Origin: a virus
Length of the DNA stretch: 35,352 nucleotides
Virus record (IMG/VR): IMGVR_UViG_3300045738_000731
Location: 1-35,352 of that record
Reading direction: 5' to 3' (one strand)
Position 1 is the stretch's first letter, and each line of letters starts with the position of its first letter. The notes under the pieces were generated by a model that did not search any database, was not told where the DNA came from, and saw nothing but the letters and a program-made list of their open reading frames with translations. The position numbers and the translations under genes are program-made. This document shows, piece by piece, positions 4,841 through 31,051 of the stretch.

Positions 4841-5144
4841 CGCGAAACGCTGGGTCGTTGTCGAGGAGCTTGGGTCTGCGCGGCTCCCTGGTCAGCGATG
4901 CACCGATACCGCTCGCTATCGCACCGATCTGCGGCAGGATGTACTGAGCGATCCTGGGACCGGCAGTCCACGCGAGGAGGCCGGTGAAGATCGTGCCCAT
5001 GAGTGCGTAGGCTGCGTTCGGGACCTCGGCCCAGAGCAGAGAATCGGCCACGATGATGGCGGCAGTGAACACCAAGGACGCGACCAGCAGGACTCTCGCG
5101 GCTGATGGGTTGCCTTTCTCGTCAGCTAGGATCTGGGAGATCAT
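4827..5144 (-). CDS. Holin-like membrane protein
   Basis: A 105-aa product with hydrophobic segments at about residues 18-38 (VLLVASLVFTAAIIVADSLL) and 45-62 (AYALMGTIFTGLLAWTAG), a third weak one at 65-82, and a charged C-terminal tail (REPRRPKLLDNDPAFRDDEK). Size, topology and position directly before the endolysin make it the likely holin that times lysis by opening the inner membrane. The start overlaps the stop of the 593-aa gene (ATGA) with no good ribosome site, so translation is probably coupled. Confidence 0.7.
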   Translation of the reverse strand: MISQILADEKGNPSAARVLLVASLVFTAAIIVADSLLWAEVPNAAYALMGTIFTGLLAWTAGPRIAQYILPQIGAIASGIGASLTREPRRPKLLDNDPAFRDDEK

Positions 5145-6922
5145 TGGATGAGCCCGAGTTGTCGGAGTTGTTCCCTCACCTGTTCATCGGTGAGGTTGGA
5201 GCTCCGGCGTGAGTCCTCTACCCTTGTGGCATCGGGTTGGGCCTCAAGCGCACGAACAGTTGGTCCCGCTGTGCGCCGTGCCTCGTTGGCCGCATTTACA
5301 GCGGTGACAAAAGGCCGTGCTGTTCGTATGGCCGGCCCAGCAATCGGTGCTGCCGCCCTTACGACGGGGCTCGCAACATTAGCTGCTCTCGCTGCGAGGA
5401 CGGTCCCTTCACCTACCAGGCGCGGACTCGATGACGCTAAATACCCCAGTGCAGGGATATTCCCCTGGAAACCACTAATGAGGGCAGCAGCAGCCGGCGA
5501 ACCAATCCTTGCTTGCCCCACCGGAACACCTGGCCTTAACGCAGACCCCGCAAGTGCGGGCGTCAGTGACGGATCCAACACATTTACATTAGCGGCACGA
5601 TTCCCGAATCCGGTGTTGACCCCATCCTTCAATGCCTGTTGCAATTTCCTCAAGGCGGCTGCTTGCGTATGCCCTGCCATCAGGCCCAAGTCCTTGCCGA
5701 GCTCCTTCTCCAACGTGATCGCTGCCTCATATCCTTCCATGACCGACTTGTACTCAGGATCGACCCTGATGATCTCCCTGCGGAGTTCATTCCGCACGGT
5801 CGAGGTCATAGAGTTTGCTGATCGCCCAGCCCCGGTAGAAGCCTCCCCCATCAGCGCATCAATCTCTTTCTTCAAGATATCCAGATCGTAAACTGAGTTC
5901 CATTCGTTCGACTCGAAGGTATCCATCAATTTGTCGATCTCTCTCAATCGCTGAACCGCAGGAGTGTTTTCACGCAGCACTCGAGCATCCGGAGGCCCAA
6001 CCTCCCACTCCTTGTACAGACCCCGGATCCTCTCTCGAATAGGGGCAAGGTTCACGGTCCTATCGCTCAAGTTCACCATGCCAGTTCGATATGCCGCTCG
6101 CCTCCCCTCGGCCATAGCCGCCATAGCCCTTTCGGCTTGGGCTACAATACCCATATCGATTCGTTGTACATCAGCACCTTTGGCCCGCATCGATTCGAGA
6201 AGAGCCTTGATATCGTCGCCACCCTTCCTCGCCGCATCCCATGCTGCCCTGATTGGTAGAGCGCCCGTACCTGGCGCGATACCCATTACCTCGGCAACCT
6301 TCCCCCCCACCGCTGCCGGGAATCTGGATTGAGCCACCTTACTCACTCCCCGTCCAGTGGCCGTCACGGGATCCATCCAACCCACAGCCCTTTGGGTTTG
6401 CTGTGCCACCCTTCCGACATTGCCACCCGCCCGCACTCCAGCGCCCGTACCTAGTAATAGTACAGCCGCCAGATCGGCAAGTACCCCCGCCGGATCCTCC
6501 CTAAACGAGGTCTTGAACTCATCGAGACCACCATACCTGTTCTTGAAATACTCCCCCATCCCTTTAGCCAATTCTGGATCAGCCGCCGCCTCGCCACTTC
6601 CTGGCCCCAACAAGCCCGCCACCTGACCACCAGGAGCGGCAGATAATCCTCGGCGCAGGGCTTGCATCTGTGGGTTGGAGCGCATTTTGGTGTCGGCCTC
6701 GATATATCCCGGGAGTATACTCACCACACTCCGAGCAACATCGACCAGACTCTCGGCAGTTTGGATTGGATGGCGTATCATCTGCCACAGACTAGCTCCA
6801 ACGTCTTTCAAGGATTCGGGAGTGGTCTCTTTCACCCGTCCCCAATAGGGACCGGCTCCTCGCGGGAACTCGGGATCCTCGCCATTACTGATCAACCCTG
6901 AAACCTGTGGATGCGTAGGCAT
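5141..6922 (-). CDS. Large internal-virion-like protein (593 aa)
   Basis: A 593-aa product with Ala/Gly-rich low-complexity stretches. Near the N terminus is a helical region (SLWQMIRHPIQTAESLVDVA, about 45-64), then GMGEYFKNRYGG (about 121-132) leading into a hydrophobic segment VLADLAAVLLLGTGAGV (about 147-163). This pattern recurs in large phage proteins that travel with the DNA or line the tail. The middle (about 270-440) is helical and charged; the C-terminal half is Ala/Pro-rich and ends TDEQVREQLRQLGLIQ. It is the third of three consecutive large genes between the nozzle and the lysis block, the usual place for podoviral ejection proteins. The role is inferred from position and composition. 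Confidence 0.7.
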   Translation of the reverse strand: MPTHPQVSGLISNGEDPEFPRGAGPYWGRVKETTPESLKDVGASLWQMIRHPIQTAESLVDVARSVVSILPGYIEADTKMRSNPQMQALRRGLSAAPGGQVAGLLGPGSGEAAADPELAKGMGEYFKNRYGGLDEFKTSFREDPAGVLADLAAVLLLGTGAGVRAGGNVGRVAQQTQRAVGWMDPVTATGRGVSKVAQSRFPAAVGGKVAEVMGIAPGTGALPIRAAWDAARKGGDDIKALLESMRAKGADVQRIDMGIVAQAERAMAAMAEGRRAAYRTGMVNLSDRTVNLAPIRERIRGLYKEWEVGPPDARVLRENTPAVQRLREIDKLMDTFESNEWNSVYDLDILKKEIDALMGEASTGAGRSANSMTSTVRNELRREIIRVDPEYKSVMEGYEAAITLEKELGKDLGLMAGHTQAAALRKLQQALKDGVNTGFGNRAANVNVLDPSLTPALAGSALRPGVPVGQARIGSPAAAALISGFQGNIPALGYLASSSPRLVGEGTVLAARAANVASPVVRAAAPIAGPAIRTARPFVTAVNAANEARRTAGPTVRALEAQPDATRVEDSRRSSNLTDEQVREQLRQLGLIQ

Positions 6923-8883
6923 TAGCTCATCCCCAGCTTAGTCCTGAGTTGTCGCCGCATTTCCATAACCGTATTAGTCTCCTGATCATCGGCAAGATCA
7001 AGGAGCATTCTCTCTGCTTCAAGCCGAGTAAATGATCCTATATCTTGTTCGATAGCCCTGGAGATCGCGCCATCGGTCGTGAGCACATCGTAGTCCTCGG
7101 GCCGAACCAGTAGATGTGCCATCGCTATAGTATCAGCGCCACCTTCCTCGGTGAACGTCCACGGGTTATCGAAATTGATGAACGACCGCTGATTGGCCGG
7201 ATTATCGTACCAATCCGACATCCTATTCTTCATCGCAGCCGTTCGCTGGACCTCACGCTTTAGACGCTCGATACGAATCTTATTCATTTCCTCGGGCAAT
7301 CTCATGTTGTACGATGCGGCCACCAGCCGCTCGCCCTCTTTCTGAGTGAACTGCGCCCCGAGTGTCTCCCTGAGAGATTCGTAGACAACGCCCGAGATGA
7401 GATCCCTGGCGTTGGTGGCTTCGATGTTAAGGAGCTCGAACAGTGTCTCCGGAAGTATCCAATCCATCACCCCAACAGCACCACCCGTAATTGCTCCTGG
7501 CTCATCCAGTGCCGCAAGAATATCAGTGAACTTCTCAAGCTGGCTTGTGAATGCCGTCTCGCCACCCGAGTTCCAATCGTAGACCTCGAGGACGAGTCTG
7601 CTATTCATCTCCTTTTCTGCATCAGATGCGAAATAGCCGCCGGCAGAAGTGGGCATACCCGTCTGTAGCGACATCACAAGCATCTGAGCCGCATTCATCG
7701 GCATCCCAGGCACCCAGTCGGGATCTCCTAGAGCGTAGATGCGATCCTCGATCCGTTCAGTATTGCCCTTCGCGGTGCGGGTCAGGGTGGAGCTCCAGAA
7801 CCTTTCGGCATCTTCCACCTTAATAGGATCTCCAGCCGCCTCCCTAAGCATGTTTTGGTAGTATTCCCAGTTTTGTCGATCTACACCGCCAGCAGCCCCA
7901 CCACCCTGCTGTGCGGTATACTGATCTTCCAGGATCTTTAGGGCTGTTGCTTTGGGGAGATTGTTAAAACTAGCCCGAGTCTTTGGATCAGTGATCTCTA
8001 AAAGATCCATTAGGCCCTCAATCGACAGTTCCTGGGATGTGACTTCCCGGGCACCCGTCAATCGGGCCTCAAGCTGCCCCGTGATGACCCTATAGCCCTC
8101 TACGGTCCTAGCCATCTCGAGGGCTCTGGCTCTCTCTGCCGGATCGGTTATCCCTACCTGATCTAGCATGGCGGTCACTGTGCTCACGCGGCCCGTCAAT
8201 CCGGTAGTCGCAGTTTGAGCCGTCTGTTGCCTTGCGGCCTCACTGGTCTGGAACCGAGCTCGCTCGGCTGCGAAGCCCTTGAGCCCCGTCCCTAATGAGC
8301 CGCCGAAGGTCGCGCCAGGGCGTCCAGCCGCTTCCATCATCGCGCCGCCGGCGCCGATCATGGCCTGTCCCATCCCCGGTCCCGTCAGATAGTCCTTGAC
8401 CCCGAAACCGCCGCCATCGCCAACATCGGTTCTGTCCTGTGGTACGCTAGCACCGGGCATTAACGAGTATCCCCCGGGAGCTAATGGGTTGGGATACACT
8501 TGCTGTGGAGGCCGATCGGTCATTGGTGGGCCTTGGGCAACCTCTTCTACGAATCCTTGGCTTCTAGGCCGCAGAGATGAGATCACTGACGCTACCGAGG
8601 GGGTAGCTGACGGACGGGCACTAGACTGCATCGTCCCGGGCGTAGGCGCACCCGGGATGCGTGATTGTGGTTCTGCATAGGTGCCGCTTGCCGCTCGAGT
8701 TCGTTGACCAGCGGCCTGACGTTCACGCCAGCCTGGGGATCTAAGCCGATCGGTGAACGAACCCGTGGCGTCGAGCAACGGCAATGACGCCGTTAGCCGG
8801 CCACCGCTCCGGAGTTGGTTGAGCCACTCTTGACCGGGGTTGCCGGGACGGTACTGCCTGGGATCGATCGGCATAAATGGCAT
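6922..8883 (-). CDS. Large internal-virion-like protein (653 aa)
   Basis: A 653-aa product whose ATG overlaps the previous stop (TGATG). The first 180 residues are Pro/Gly/Ser-rich and probably disordered; a Gly/Ala/Met-rich segment follows (GPGMGQAMIGAGGAMMEAAG), then long charged helices to the C terminus. It begins MPFM like the upstream 1106-aa protein, but the similarity does not extend. No enzymatic motif (for example lytic transglycosylase) is visible. By position among large genes after the tail nozzle it is probably an ejected or internal virion protein; this is inference. Confidence 0.7.
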   Translation of the reverse strand: MPFMPIDPRQYRPGNPGQEWLNQLRSGGRLTASLPLLDATGSFTDRLRSPGWRERQAAGQRTRAASGTYAEPQSRIPGAPTPGTMQSSARPSATPSVASVISSLRPRSQGFVEEVAQGPPMTDRPPQQVYPNPLAPGGYSLMPGASVPQDRTDVGDGGGFGVKDYLTGPGMGQAMIGAGGAMMEAAGRPGATFGGSLGTGLKGFAAERARFQTSEAARQQTAQTATTGLTGRVSTVTAMLDQVGITDPAERARALEMARTVEGYRVITGQLEARLTGAREVTSQELSIEGLMDLLEITDPKTRASFNNLPKATALKILEDQYTAQQGGGAAGGVDRQNWEYYQNMLREAAGDPIKVEDAERFWSSTLTRTAKGNTERIEDRIYALGDPDWVPGMPMNAAQMLVMSLQTGMPTSAGGYFASDAEKEMNSRLVLEVYDWNSGGETAFTSQLEKFTDILAALDEPGAITGGAVGVMDWILPETLFELLNIEATNARDLISGVVYESLRETLGAQFTQKEGERLVAASYNMRLPEEMNKIRIERLKREVQRTAAMKNRMSDWYDNPANQRSFINFDNPWTFTEEGGADTIAMAHLLVRPEDYDVLTTDGAISRAIEQDIGSFTRLEAERMLLDLADDQETNTVMEMRRQLRTKLGMS

Positions 8884-24343: not shown

Positions 24344-24541
24344 ATGACCATCAAATATGTACGCACCAAAGGCGGCAACGCCTGGGTACAGGTAGGCGAA
24401 CGCAACGAAGAAGAATGGGACGAGTTGCTGAAAACCGCTGGCGGTTGCAGGGGCGTCACCTCGGTGAACTACCGAGCAGCCCGGGCTGCCCAGAAGGCTG
24501 ATCGCCAAGCTGACTCTGAAGACCTAAAGCCCCAAGAATAG
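24344..24541 (+). CDS. Lone plus-strand small hypothetical protein (65 aa)
   Basis: The 65-aa product starts MTIKYVRTKGGNAWVQVGER and is followed by a charged helical part with Ala/Arg/Lys (RAARAAQKADRQADSEDLKP). AGGAGG stands five bases before the ATG, the best ribosome site of the region. It is the only plus-strand gene inside the late module, and its last 86 bases overlap the 3' end of the 937-aa gene on the other strand. Its control sequence copies that of the plus-strand operon at 2144. It behaves like a separately regulated accessory insertion; function unknown. Confidence 0.75.
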   Translation: MTIKYVRTKGGNAWVQVGERNEEEWDELLKTAGGCRGVTSVNYRAARAAQKADRQADSEDLKPQE

Positions 24542-27269
24542 CGACAGAAGGCAACGCGATACTCGGATCGGCAAGGGCTCTCCGTAACGCATCGTAGCCG
24601 CTCTGGCCGGCTTCCACGGCCTTGATGAATATGTTCCGCGCCCTGATCACATCGGGATTCTGCGGCCTACCCGATTGAGCCGCGAAGGCTTCGTCGGCCC
24701 TTGCGTTGATCTCCATGCGCTGTGCCAACCGCGCCTCTATCGCCCTAGCCACTTCCGGCTCGGCGTCCATCAAATCCAAGAAAGTCTGGGTGGCGCTTCC
24801 TGACCCCGGCTGTGTGAGATCGAATCCGATATAGCCCGATTGCGCTTTGACTCTCTCTAGCTTGGCGTCAGGGAAAATCTGACCAATTTCGGTGCCAAGG
24901 TCGCCTTTTGTAAGGCGCGATTGCAACTCCCACCCATTGATATTCCACTTTTCGAGTCGGGCTTTTTCTGCGTCCGTAAGCGATGACTTCGCCGTGAGTC
25001 TCGCGGCCCACCCCGGCGTCTGTGTTGGATCTTCGATCAGATTCACGCCGGCGCCCGTATCCGATACGAACCATCCATTCTGATCGGCAATGTCATGTAT
25101 GGCTTTCAATTCTGCTTCGGTAGCGGCGCGATTCAACGGAATATGAACGCTCGTTCTCTGCCACAACTGATTTTGCGTTTGAGATTGAGGGATCAGATAG
25201 TGCCACGATCCAGCGTTCTGCACATCAGCGTATGCCCTGCCGCCTTCGACCGTGTTCAGCAGCCGTTCTGACTGCTCTATCAATTTGCCGTCCCGGGAAT
25301 ACACAAGCGGCCTGTGAACTTCCAGCGGGTTGAATTCGAGGAGTCCACCCTGTGGCCGGAAGCTGCCCGTGCTACTCAGGGTTGGATCCTGCATAACCCC
25401 TACTTCCTCATAGAGCAGATCACGCCCCCCGGGCCCTATCTGCTGGGCAGTTTTGCCTCTGCTGTAGGCGGCACGTTCAGCGGCTGGCCGGTCCTCCATC
25501 CGAATATGGGGAGTAGCTTGCGGATATTTCGCCATGTCGATCACAGCAGGAACTTGTTCGGTGGTCGCATACCCGTGGTATCTCGGACCGAGCGCGGCAT
25601 AGCCTCCCGGTGGGCCTATCTTCTTGACGCTCGGATCGCGAATTTGAGCGCCCCTCCATGCAGCGGCCTGTGTATTGAGGGGATCCCAATCATTAAAGCC
25701 ACCGACCTTATTGTCGTTCATGTACTTGATGATCACCTCGAGCTCGTCATCCATGAACTGGTGCTGGGATGGGCTAAACCCTCCACTCCACTTTTTCCCG
25801 CCGGGGTTTTTCGTGTCCGGTATGTGGCGATACCCCAACGCTCGACCTTCCCAGATATCATGCACGGCACGATCACCAAATTGTGGATATCTGGTCACTT
25901 GAATGTTTTGCCGATAAGGATCCAGTTTTTCCCCCAACCACGAAGCCCCTACACGCGGGGCGGTGCGCTCGAGAGCCGCGTCATATCTCGGTGCCAATTT
26001 TTCTGGGTACGGGCCACCACGAATAGGATCACCCACAGCCCGTTGTGACAGCACTTCGCTTGTGCTGCCCAGGCTTACACTGGGTTTGCGCCCCTGTGAT
26101 CCAATCGCCAGGAGATTCGCGTTTAGTTCACGGTTTCCACGCCCTCGGGGGGACGCCAGATCGATCCATCGAGAGGACTGCGAATACCAATCTCTGCCCT
26201 CGATGCCCTCGATAGCTTGCGCGATATATTCGCGCCTCATCCTCTCCAACTTCTCAGGAGAATCGACCCTGGTCGCTCCATGCATGGGACCGCCCACATA
26301 TGCCCCGTCTTTATGGGTCTTCATAACCCTGCCTGGGATGCCAGGCGCTGATCCGACAGCAGGAAGATTGTCGATGTAGATAGTTCTAGTAGCAGCTTCT
26401 TCGGGGGTGAGGCCGGTCCTCGAATCTCGAGCACCTCCAATCGGTAAGCCCGAATCGTCAAGCTCGATCTGGCGTCCGATTGTCGCCGGTTCTCCAGGCA
26501 ACGGGCGAGAAGGCTCCACCCTCGTAGATGCTCGCATTCCCAGATCGTCAACAGGATCGGCTGCGTCCCGCGCAGCCCTTCGTGCTGCTTGTGCGGCCTG
26601 TGCTGCCTCGGCCTCGATCCTTGCGGCCCTCCTCGCTGTTCTCAGCGCCGGCATAGCCAACATACCGAAGCCGGGGATGGCCGAGAGGAGTTCTAGCGAA
26701 CCTATCGCCGTGCTGCCCTCCGGATCCCTCAATTCACCCACGCCCCGTACCGCTGCCGCTAGATCGGCACCGAGGCCACCAACGACCTCGCTCGTCAACA
26801 TCCCAGCAAAACCGCCAGCCCTGCCGGCGGCTGTGTCCGGAGCTCGAGGGGCGGCGGGGCTGTCGATGATGTCCGTTATCCAGCCGCCGGGGCCACCTAC
26901 CGATTCCGCACCGAGGGTGCGGGCAAGATCGAGTAGGCCACGCGGAGTCTCACGGGCCACGCCTTTACCGAAGTCGCTCACCATGCGCGGCAGCGTGTAG
27001 CGCAGATTGTCCAAGATATGACCGGGGACAGAATGCCGGAATTCGGGAGGCCCGATCGATGGGTATCCCGGCTCACCGGCCATCGCACGACGGCGATGCT
27101 CTTCCTGTTGCCGCAGGACCGGATCCATCTGGGCTTCGGGGCTCTGCCCCCATTCCTCCGCAGCCGAGAGCAGCGATTGCGGCAATCGGGTACGCGGCCA
27201 GGTGGGATCCGGATCGGGTTGATTCAGCAGTCCGTTCTGTGGACGACGATGGCGCGGGTAATGTGGCAT
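24456..27269 (-). CDS. Large virion-like or polyvalent protein (937 aa)
   Basis: A 937-aa product encoded directly before the large terminase. Residues 1-230 are Pro/Arg- and Ala-rich, with a Gly-rich hydrophobic part (SAIPGFGMLAMPALRTARRA). The middle contains RAVHDIWEGRALGYRH, FSPSQHQFMDDELEVIIKYM and a GGFNDWDPLNTQAAAWRGAQ block (about 470-550), which reminds me of regions in large multi-domain phage proteins that are carried in the virion, but I cannot name a family. Near the C terminus is HDIADQNGWFVSDTGAGVNL. Residues 807-815 (VKAQSGYIG) are duplicated at nucleotide level in the small gene at 27726. GGAAG lies four bases before the ATG. Placement before terL is unusual for an internal virion protein. 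Confidence 0.75.
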   Translation of the reverse strand: MPHYPRHRRPQNGLLNQPDPDPTWPRTRLPQSLLSAAEEWGQSPEAQMDPVLRQQEEHRRRAMAGEPGYPSIGPPEFRHSVPGHILDNLRYTLPRMVSDFGKGVARETPRGLLDLARTLGAESVGGPGGWITDIIDSPAAPRAPDTAAGRAGGFAGMLTSEVVGGLGADLAAAVRGVGELRDPEGSTAIGSLELLSAIPGFGMLAMPALRTARRAARIEAEAAQAAQAARRAARDAADPVDDLGMRASTRVEPSRPLPGEPATIGRQIELDDSGLPIGGARDSRTGLTPEEAATRTIYIDNLPAVGSAPGIPGRVMKTHKDGAYVGGPMHGATRVDSPEKLERMRREYIAQAIEGIEGRDWYSQSSRWIDLASPRGRGNRELNANLLAIGSQGRKPSVSLGSTSEVLSQRAVGDPIRGGPYPEKLAPRYDAALERTAPRVGASWLGEKLDPYRQNIQVTRYPQFGDRAVHDIWEGRALGYRHIPDTKNPGGKKWSGGFSPSQHQFMDDELEVIIKYMNDNKVGGFNDWDPLNTQAAAWRGAQIRDPSVKKIGPPGGYAALGPRYHGYATTEQVPAVIDMAKYPQATPHIRMEDRPAAERAAYSRGKTAQQIGPGGRDLLYEEVGVMQDPTLSSTGSFRPQGGLLEFNPLEVHRPLVYSRDGKLIEQSERLLNTVEGGRAYADVQNAGSWHYLIPQSQTQNQLWQRTSVHIPLNRAATEAELKAIHDIADQNGWFVSDTGAGVNLIEDPTQTPGWAARLTAKSSLTDAEKARLEKWNINGWELQSRLTKGDLGTEIGQIFPDAKLERVKAQSGYIGFDLTQPGSGSATQTFLDLMDAEPEVARAIEARLAQRMEINARADEAFAAQSGRPQNPDVIRARNIFIKAVEAGQSGYDALRRALADPSIALPSVAILGALGLQSQLGDQPSGQPGLLGSSPR
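24825..24851. repeat. 27-base exact repeat, copy 1
   Basis: These 27 bases are identical to 27744-27770 and both copies are read in the same frame on the minus strand as VKAQSGYIG. Core: GATATAGCCCGATTGCGC. Confidence 0.85.
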
Positions 27270-29733: not shown

Positions 29734-29989
29734 AACGCTTACCCTCCTCCTCGAAACTCGGCCATGAATCGACAATGATCTTGAGTCTCCTGTCCAATCG
29801 CTTCTCCGACACCGGGACACCGTCCTGATAGCGCAGCGGATCGTCGGGTGGCAGTCCTCCACCACGCAATTCCTTGATCACTTCCCTGATGTCCTGGCGC
29901 CACTCCTCTGCGTACTCGCTGATCTCCTCCAGCGGCAGTAGCTCGAGCGCAGCCAGGAGCCTGGCAGCTTTGCTATTCACCTCACTCAC
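29711..29989 (-). CDS. Small hypothetical protein (92 aa)
   Basis: A 92-aa product from the GTG at 29989, which overlaps the preceding TGA (GTGA) and has GAGG five bases upstream; a longer frame from 30100 lacks a signal. It is acidic and helical (LLAALELLPLEEISEYAEEW; RQDIREVIKELRGGG), followed by a basic part (VPVSEKRLDRRLKIIVDSWP). Not recognised. It overlaps the terS start by 23 bases, so it is translated together with it. Confidence 0.68.
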   Translation of the reverse strand: MSEVNSKAARLLAALELLPLEEISEYAEEWRQDIREVIKELRGGGLPPDDPLRYQDGVPVSEKRLDRRLKIIVDSWPSFEEEGKRYGWTENH

Positions 29990-30213
29990 TTCCCCCTCTC
30001 GGCTCGTTGTCTCGCCAATCCGTTGGCAACCCACGAGGCGGGCAGAAGCGCCACACATTGTTCTGCCGTCTGCGTCAGCGTATAGCCGAGAGAGCGCCAC
30101 CGCTCAATATCGTCAGACACACTACGCATCGTGAGCAGGTGAGATGCAAGTACGAGCGTACCCCCAAGGATCAAGGCCATGTAAGTAGCAATGAACTTAT
30201 TCCAAGTTGTCAT
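29986..30213 (-). CDS. Small membrane-anchored hypothetical protein (75 aa)
   Basis: A 75-aa product from the ATG at 30213, with AGGAGGG five bases upstream and only one base after the methyltransferase stop. An N-terminal transmembrane segment (FIATYMALILGGTLVLASHL, residues 7-26) precedes a soluble part (MRSVSDDIERWRSLGYTLTQ...). It is a type II or signal-anchored small protein of unknown role in the early operon. Confidence 0.7.
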   Translation of the reverse strand: MTTWNKFIATYMALILGGTLVLASHLLTMRSVSDDIERWRSLGYTLTQTAEQCVALLPASWVANGLARQRAERGK

Positions 30214-30214
30214 A

Positions 30215-31051
30215 TCAGCCCTCCTCACTGGGCAACCGTCTCCCGATCCATTCTGCTACTTGGGGCACGATGGCGTTGCCGAGTGCTCTAAGTCTGTCCA
30301 CCCGGTGGGAAACCCCATGAGCCACTCGACCCAGGCTGGATTCAACTGCCCAGTGCTCTCGCCCCGTGGTGTACTTGAGTCGCCCGTCCTCACTGCATCC
30401 GTCAGTGACACCCCGGCGTGCGCCTTCGATCCTTCTAGGTTGCGCGACCCCGAAGACTTCGCGTCCCCCGCTGTCGGTGTGGGCCACAACCCCTTCCTCG
30501 CCATCGTGTCCAACGACGGACGCACCGGACCCACTCGACCCATTCCACCCCCTTGGTTCGTCCCGTAGCTCACCGCTGTCGGTGTGGGCAATAACGAAGA
30601 TCCGCTTTCGGAGATGAGGGGCACCCACGGACGCAGCGGAGATACAGCCCCATTCCGCATCGTACCCTGCTGCGGCCAAGTCTCGGAGAACGTCTCCCAT
30701 CCCCCGAACAAGGAGCCCTGGCACGTTTTCCACAAGCGCGTATCGGGGTCGTAGCTCGCGTAAGATCCTCGCGAACTCGGGCCAGAGCCATCGCTCATCG
30801 TCTTGACCTCGCTGTTTGCCCGCCGTGCTCACGGGCTGACATGGGAATCCACCGCATATGACATCTACCTCCTCCAGATTGTGAGCACCAACGTCGTGAA
30901 TATCCTCATAACACGGCACATTCGGCCAGTGCTTCGCCAAAACCTTCCGGCAGTAGGGCTCGTTCTCGACTTGCCAGACGATCTCCATCCCACATCGCTC
31001 CAGCCCGAGGTCGAAGCCGCCTATCCCGCTGAACAGGCTACCGACTCTCAT
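30215..31051 (-). CDS. dcm: DNA cytosine-5 methyltransferase
   Basis: The 278-aa product shows C5-methyltransferase motifs: I SLFSGIGGFDLGL (5-17), IV CGGFPCQP with catalytic C71, VI LVENVPGL (106-113), VIII-like LRKRIFVIAHT (147-157) and X ALGNAIVPQVAEW (257-269). No restriction partner is nearby, so it probably protects phage DNA from host restriction. The segment between motifs VIII and X, which should be the target-recognition region, is short and Gly/Arg/Asp-rich and overlaps a second ORF in another frame. The start overlaps the previous stop (ATGA). Confidence 0.93.
   Translation of the reverse strand: MRVGSLFSGIGGFDLGLERCGMEIVWQVENEPYCRKVLAKHWPNVPCYEDIHDVGAHNLEEVDVICGGFPCQPVSTAGKQRGQDDERWLWPEFARILRELRPRYALVENVPGLLVRGMGDVLRDLAAAGYDAEWGCISAASVGAPHLRKRIFVIAHTDSGELRDEPRGWNGSSGSGASVVGHDGEEGVVAHTDSGGREVFGVAQPRRIEGARRGVTDGCSEDGRLKYTTGREHWAVESSLGRVAHGVSHRVDRLRALGNAIVPQVAEWIGRRLPSEEG
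30256..30798 (-). CDS. Nested same-strand ORF within dcm (180 aa)
   Basis: A 180-codon frame lies entirely within the methyltransferase gene, shifted one base, and starts at an ATG with GAGGT seven bases upstream. Its product has the look of a real protein family: SYASYDPDTRLWKTCQGSLF (12-31), WPQQGTMRNGAVSPLRPW (41-58), two LPTPTA/WPTPTA boxes, and LNPAWVEWLMGFPTGWTDLE (152-171). I recall such sequences (WPTPxA and LNPxWVEWLMGxPxGWTxL) in phage proteins encoded next to or overlapping cytosine methyltransferases. Both frames therefore look conserved at the same bases. Role unknown; possibly a methyltransferase partner or specificity subunit. Confidence 0.6.
   Translation of the reverse strand: MSDGSGPSSRGSYASYDPDTRLWKTCQGSLFGGWETFSETWPQQGTMRNGAVSPLRPWVPLISESGSSLLPTPTAVSYGTNQGGGMGRVGPVRPSLDTMARKGLWPTPTAGDAKSSGSRNLEGSKAHAGVSLTDAVRTGDSSTPRGESTGQLNPAWVEWLMGFPTGWTDLEHSATPSCPK

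Follow-up and report, generated by a model that had tools for sequence, protein, structure and literature searches.

A nested reading frame in a phage cytosine methyltransferase gene is under selection and may encode a second subunit of the same enzyme

Organization of the locus

The window, that is, the whole stretch of 35,352 nucleotides of virus record IMGVR_UViG_3300045738_000731, is a tailed-phage contig, and matches to portal, scaffold, major head and DNA ejection proteins are found among its other ORFs. Its minus strand carries a dcm-type methyltransferase ORF, here called alpha, with a second ORF, beta, lying wholly inside it, and some 540 bases carry both frames. The initial annotation had described beta as a 180-codon ORF on the strand of dcm, shifted by one base and provided with its own ATG and a GAGGT ribosome site; this description is exact, beta being in the +1 frame and the ribosome site being present at a spacing of 7 nt. 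The main features are the following:

30215..31051, minus strand: alpha, C5-cytosine methyltransferase ORF of 278 codons (motifs I-VIII, residues 1-157; motif X, residues ~254-271; motif IX absent)
30836..30844, minus strand: catalytic PCQ of motif IV, alpha residues 70-72, invariant in A2/A4, upstream of the overlap
30806..30810, minus strand: GAGGT ribosome-binding site, 7 nt 5' of the beta ATG (from the sequence)
30256..30798, minus strand: beta, nested +1-frame ORF of 180 codons with ATG start, carrying a PTPTA region resembling a target-recognition domain (TRD) and motif IX
30574..30588, minus strand: first PTPTA box of beta, residues 71-75, with P71, T72 and P73 invariant or nearly so
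30469..30486, minus strand: WPTPTA box of beta, residues 105-110, with W105-P108 nearly invariant
30298..30345, minus strand: motif IX of beta, LNPAWVEWLMGFPTGW, residues 152-167, near-invariant in A1/A3
30239..30292, minus strand: motif X of alpha (LRALGNAIVPQVAEWIG region), residues 254-271, with AF2 helices and partly beneath the beta tail

An upstream ORF of 142 aa runs 4 nt into the start of alpha, which is adjoined by phage replication genes, namely those of a DnaB-like helicase, a DnaD-like loader and a RecE-like DUF3799 nuclease, and also by a small terminase gene; no restriction enzyme family was found among the neighbouring genes checked. At the other end, the last 14 nt of alpha are shared with an 80-aa ORF (29986-30228, minus strand), which has a hydrophobic N-terminal stretch (FIATYMALILGGTLVLASHLL) and for which a confident family match was not found. 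Three large ORFs on the minus strand (24456-27269, 6922-8883 and 5141-6922, of 937, 653 and 593 aa) lie among the structural genes and have no PHROG match at E<=0.001.

Products of the two frames

Alpha matches phrog_363 (2.4e-83) and PF00145 (4.6e-46), the latter over residues 1-159 only, which correspond to motifs I-VIII and to positions 1-164 of the 324 of the family. In the AlphaFold (AF2) model, pLDDT is ~96 for residues 1-157 and below 50 for most of residues 161-245, with helices at 250-257 and 263-271 in the region of motif X, and the best PDB fold matches are M.HhaI (3.3e-17) and M.HaeIII, over ~160 residues. The dcm frame had been credited with all key motifs through X, and this stands for motifs I-VIII and X, whereas motif IX is missing. 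Thus, since the PF00145 match is restricted to motifs I-VIII and residues 161-245 are predicted to be disordered, neither motif IX nor a folded target-recognition domain is present in alpha.

Beta matches phrog_1008 (2e-38), and the search of phage databases called for by the initial annotation also recovered it by tblastn in 98 phage records and 3 plasmids. It has no match in Pfam or NCBIfam, and a PDB search by sequence only with the beta profile gave chance matches only. Modelled alone, beta is poorly predicted by AF2 (mean pLDDT 64.5, pTM 0.31), and this weak model finds nothing among PDB folds at E<=0.001. Its C-terminal block, LNPxWVEWLMGFPxGW, is identifiable by sequence comparison as motif IX, because a main-frame copy immediately precedes motif X in two relatives, locus L181 (LNPDWVEWLMGYPISW) and L262 (Candidatus Megaera plasmid), and because the L181 block was aligned by phmmer with M.HhaI residues 270-318, the IX-X part being weak alone (6 bits). 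The presence of motif IX in the nested ORF, which makes it look like a second subunit of the same enzyme, goes beyond what had been noticed earlier. In the alpha frame, the bases of this motif (30298..30345) are read as the SLGRVAHGVSHR stretch. Motif X and LNPAWVEW had been thought to use the same bases, which proved incorrect: the bases of LNPAWVEW give ESSLGRVAH in the dcm frame, and motif X, with its GNA at about 30280, lies beneath the tail of the nested ORF.

The bases that alpha reads as its repeated VADTDG are read as WPTPTA in beta, and of the two versions single-chain enzymes retain PTPTA, not VADTDG. Since beta has a poor AF2 model and no fold match, it is only from their position in the single-chain relatives that the PTPTA boxes may be taken to read the target DNA.

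Evidence for dual coding

The initial annotation proposed a large dual-coding region, and this reading gained strong support, with both frames under selection, from a shuffle test, from frozen synonymous sites, from the conservation of alpha and beta as a pair in about 260 loci and from enriched ribosome sites. The same selection tests strongly support its further suggestion that dual coding explains the odd target-recognition segment of dcm. As the null, synonymous codons were shuffled within each dcm gene, which keeps protein and codon usage exactly. Stop codons in the nested frame of homologous loci, named beforehand as contrary evidence, are nearly absent, with 1 observed over 82 loci versus 253 expected, and the frame is stop-free in 81 of these loci versus 4.2 expected, while the third same-strand frame holds 555 stops versus 558 expected, as the null predicts. 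In the window alone, the 180 codons stayed stop-free in 46 of 20,000 synonymous dcm shuffles. A chance ORF is therefore ruled out by the codon-shuffle null, both over the 82 loci and for the window alone. Moreover, on a profile of the nested protein from which the window was left out, with 200 shuffles per locus, each of the 82 loci outscores all of its own shuffles; the loci reach at least 153 bits (median 207) versus 114 for the best shuffle, and the window scores 247.8 bits versus at most 103.9 for its own shuffles.

Synonymous sites, whose comparison across homologous loci had also been proposed, are near-frozen in alpha over the motif IX block and constrained in beta over alpha motifs IV-VIII and over motif IX. 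For conserved alpha residues, in a test that is independent of nested-protein similarity, third-position entropy is 1.78 bits over codons 1-84 versus 0.96 inside the overlap (p = 2.7e-7); it is nearly zero at codons 238-248, over the beta motif IX, and climbs again at codon 258 and beyond, to 1.4-1.9, the beta ORF having come to its end. A single codon is used in all rows that have the residue at V240 (GTG, 63/63), G241 (GGT, 68/68), V243 (GTG, 66/66), A244 (GCT, 66/66) and G246 (GGG, 67/67). Four-fold-site divergence over 30 locus pairs is 0.51 before versus 0.27 inside the overlap, being lower inside in 25 of the 30 pairs. Conversely, synonymous variation in beta is restricted opposite alpha IV-VIII (0.97 bits) and at IX (0.80 bits), and is free (1.73 bits) in the middle stretch, the PTPTA part, which coincides with the alpha stretch predicted to be disordered. 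An ATG with an SD of at least 5 nt is found in the beta frame of 70 of 174 loci versus 13 of 174 in the control frame, and the likely beta starts cluster at +139 to +181 and at +250 to +256 from the alpha start.

Distribution

The two-frame arrangement is common to hundreds of phages and bacteria. The virus-contig scan gave at least 590 confirmed matches and the genome scan 354, with relatives in bacteria of many phyla and, in archaea, one MAG; within the class to which a Pseudomonas genome belongs, 12 of 369 sampled genomes (about 3%) match. The +1 overlap with dcm is present in all 80 bacterial and archaeal loci kept from the genome scan. Retrieval by alpha instead of beta gave it in 80 of 80 virus loci when alpha motifs were used and in 14 of 15 loci when the window alpha was used, the 15th being a single chain; the near-100% rates of these alpha-based samples are in part a matter of ascertainment, as the patterns came from beta-bearing loci and one of them lies beneath motif IX. 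Close relatives of the single-chain enzyme L101 were absent from the virus contigs.

Single-chain and rearranged relatives

A lack of kin outside the overlap had likewise been named as contrary evidence, and such kin exist: the C-terminal block of beta occurs in the main frame of the single-chain enzymes L181, L262, L287 and L289. In the single-chain relatives, the PTP boxes lie between motifs VIII and IX, and motif IX lies between VIII and X. Mycobacteriophage Hamulus gp68 and prophiGD91-2 gp27 carry on one chain, in order, motifs I-VIII, several LLPTPxAxD boxes, IX and X. In Twister (gp79/gp78), JangDynasty (gp6/gp5) and the Streptomyces plasmid L264, alpha stops after motif VIII, and the boxes, IX and X are all on an overlapping +1 beta. 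L262 (2804-3335) and L181 (1804-2335), whose alpha includes both IX and X, still keep a beta that lacks motif IX, which suggests that the PTPTA part of beta may have a role of its own.

In an unrooted tree of the catalytic domain, AquI-like and fused forms fall in at least two separate, well-supported clades among the dual-coded form, the Megaera-like form makes a third clade and the fused Hamulus enzyme lies inside the Twister/JangDynasty group. Motifs IX and X appear from these comparisons to have switched frame several times, in an order of events that an unrooted tree does not prove. On balance, the relatives would seem to form an ancient, very widespread C5-methyltransferase family whose whole target-recognition half is written across the catalytic half in another frame, with both frames part ancestral and part overprinted, and in which IX and X moved between frames or were fused again into one chain several times independently; this account is held with somewhat better than even confidence.

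Several loci show local irregularities. In mycobacteriophage Llama (L084, ~2050-2070), the alpha frame is broken into two genes, gp74 and gp75, and beta changes frame at that very point, as though a single small indel had displaced the two together; two-piece matches like that of Llama were also seen in Ochi17, Seabastian, OfUltron and others. The frame-swapped single loci L050, L254 and Llama L084 were taken as indels, not as evidence. The beta frame of the Paenibacillus polymyxa plasmid pAP1 (L263, 3227-3734) has two motif IX blocks, GQLNPTWVECLMGFPLDW and GQLNPAWVECLMGFPLGW, with stops between them, as after a tandem duplication. The Nostoc sp. C052 plasmid pC052_C (L267, 2492-3250) is probably a decaying copy, with an alpha without clear motif X and a beta motif IX cut short by a stop after INPAFVRWLLGFPLE.

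Proposed mechanism and alternative explanations

One stretch of DNA very probably encodes a two-subunit C5-cytosine DNA methyltransferase, in which alpha would bring motifs I-VIII and X, the TRD-like region and motif IX would come from beta, and the two chains would assemble. Frame 0 would be translated into alpha, formed by the AdoMet-binding and catalytic domain (I-VIII) and motif X with a disordered linker between them, and the +1 frame would be translated into beta from its own ATG and ribosome site. Beta would then constitute the small domain, with the PTPTA region in place of the target-recognition domain, plus motif IX; both chains would join into one working enzyme, which in the phage could shield phage DNA from host restriction. 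The pattern of synonymous constraint, the predicted disorder of alpha and the retention of PTPTA in single chains are most simply explained if the target-recognition region and IX come from beta and the matching alpha stretch is a linker. Both frames are selected, alpha lacks IX and beta has it, and the single-chain relatives join the pieces in the expected order.

It is scarcely credible that the nested frame is untranslated and that loci resemble each other in it only because alpha is conserved and codon usage is biased. Alpha does pass on part of this likeness, since shuffles reach up to 114 bits on the beta profile; however, every locus, at 153 bits or more, lies above its own shuffles, there is 1 stop against 253 expected, the other frame behaves as in the null, and the fixed synonymous codons are found inside the overlap only. 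Less remote, yet very unlikely, is that beta does some unrelated job, such as that of a regulator or an anti-restriction protein, and is a distinct protein whose gene merely overlaps that of the methyltransferase. The lack of Pfam or NCBIfam matches and the IX-less beta kept by L181 and L262 beside an alpha with IX in frame would agree with this, but the best-conserved block of beta is motif IX, which is missing in alpha and takes its place between VIII and X in single chains, and the beta of Twister and JangDynasty even has motif X.

Programmed frameshifting from alpha, instead of internal initiation, could also make beta, and would yield a longer chain fusing the alpha N-terminus to the beta C-terminus beside alpha itself. 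Natural single-chain fusions such as Hamulus gp68 and prophiGD91-2 gp27 are known and the beta frame is often open far upstream of its likely start, but this origin is very unlikely, as the beta frame has a marked excess of SD-bearing starts, which cluster at set distances from the alpha start, and as beta is conserved over alpha IV-VIII, although a late frameshift would leave that stretch out of its product.

The reading of alpha and beta as two subunits made from one DNA stretch matters in several ways. Few cases are known of long dual coding on one strand in which both frames are strongly selected, and proof is usually difficult; in this family it can be tested directly on hundreds of divergent natural copies, for which single-chain fusions and AquI-like forms serve as built-in controls. 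Annotations often keep one frame or label both "DNA methyltransferase", and the second subunit is thus easily missed in phage and prophage genomes, while alpha expressed alone may be misjudged as inactive. Moreover, the family could provide ready-made split methyltransferases, a kind already in use for targeted methylation.

Comparison with known systems

M.EaeI is a naturally two-polypeptide C5-methyltransferase, and M.EcoHK31I and M.AquI have the specificities YGGCCR and CYCGRG, respectively. The small subunit of M.EcoHK31I is reportedly encoded in an alternative frame inside the gene of the large subunit, as Lee and colleagues are said to have described in 1995. The literature search on overlapping or nested cytosine methyltransferase genes in phages found no phage-wide description of such a family, and a search of this kind cannot exclude one. 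In PHROGs, phrog_363 and phrog_1008, matched by alpha and beta, are both labelled DNA methyltransferase, but the labels give no sign that one piece of DNA can encode both, each in its own frame.

With the single-chain type represented by M.HhaI and M.HaeIII (PF00145), the catalytic domain of alpha shares the same fold, and residues 270-318 of M.HhaI are, via L181, the counterpart of the beta motif IX block. However, the window places its TRD-like region and IX in a second frame and chain, and alpha has no full-length PF00145 match. In M.AquI, the catalytic half and the TRD/IX half are separate chains (PMC3404938), a split also seen in the window pair, but motif X is in the small subunit of M.AquI and in alpha in the window, where IX and X are thus not together on the small chain. 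The Streptomyces locus L264 and the mycobacteriophage loci L285 and L286 are alike to M.AquI in content, yet they overlap in two frames.

M.EcoHK31I, a C5-methyltransferase of two polypeptides, divides its motifs between a large subunit with I-VIII and X and a small subunit with IX, and its TRD is predicted in the large subunit (PMC3404938). Alpha has the same set, I-VIII and X without IX, and motif IX is carried by beta, which would be the small subunit. Two differences are seen: the window gene belongs to a phage, and the neighbours checked include no restriction enzyme family; and the comparison suggests that the window beta also gives the target-recognition region, unlike the TRD placement predicted for M.EcoHK31I, which speaks against this part of the reading. 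As in the reported layout of that system, beta is fully nested in the +1 frame, with both frames selected. Judged by its motif division and this reported gene layout, the window pair shows the testable features of a split C5-methyltransferase of the M.EcoHK31I type and may be classed with it.
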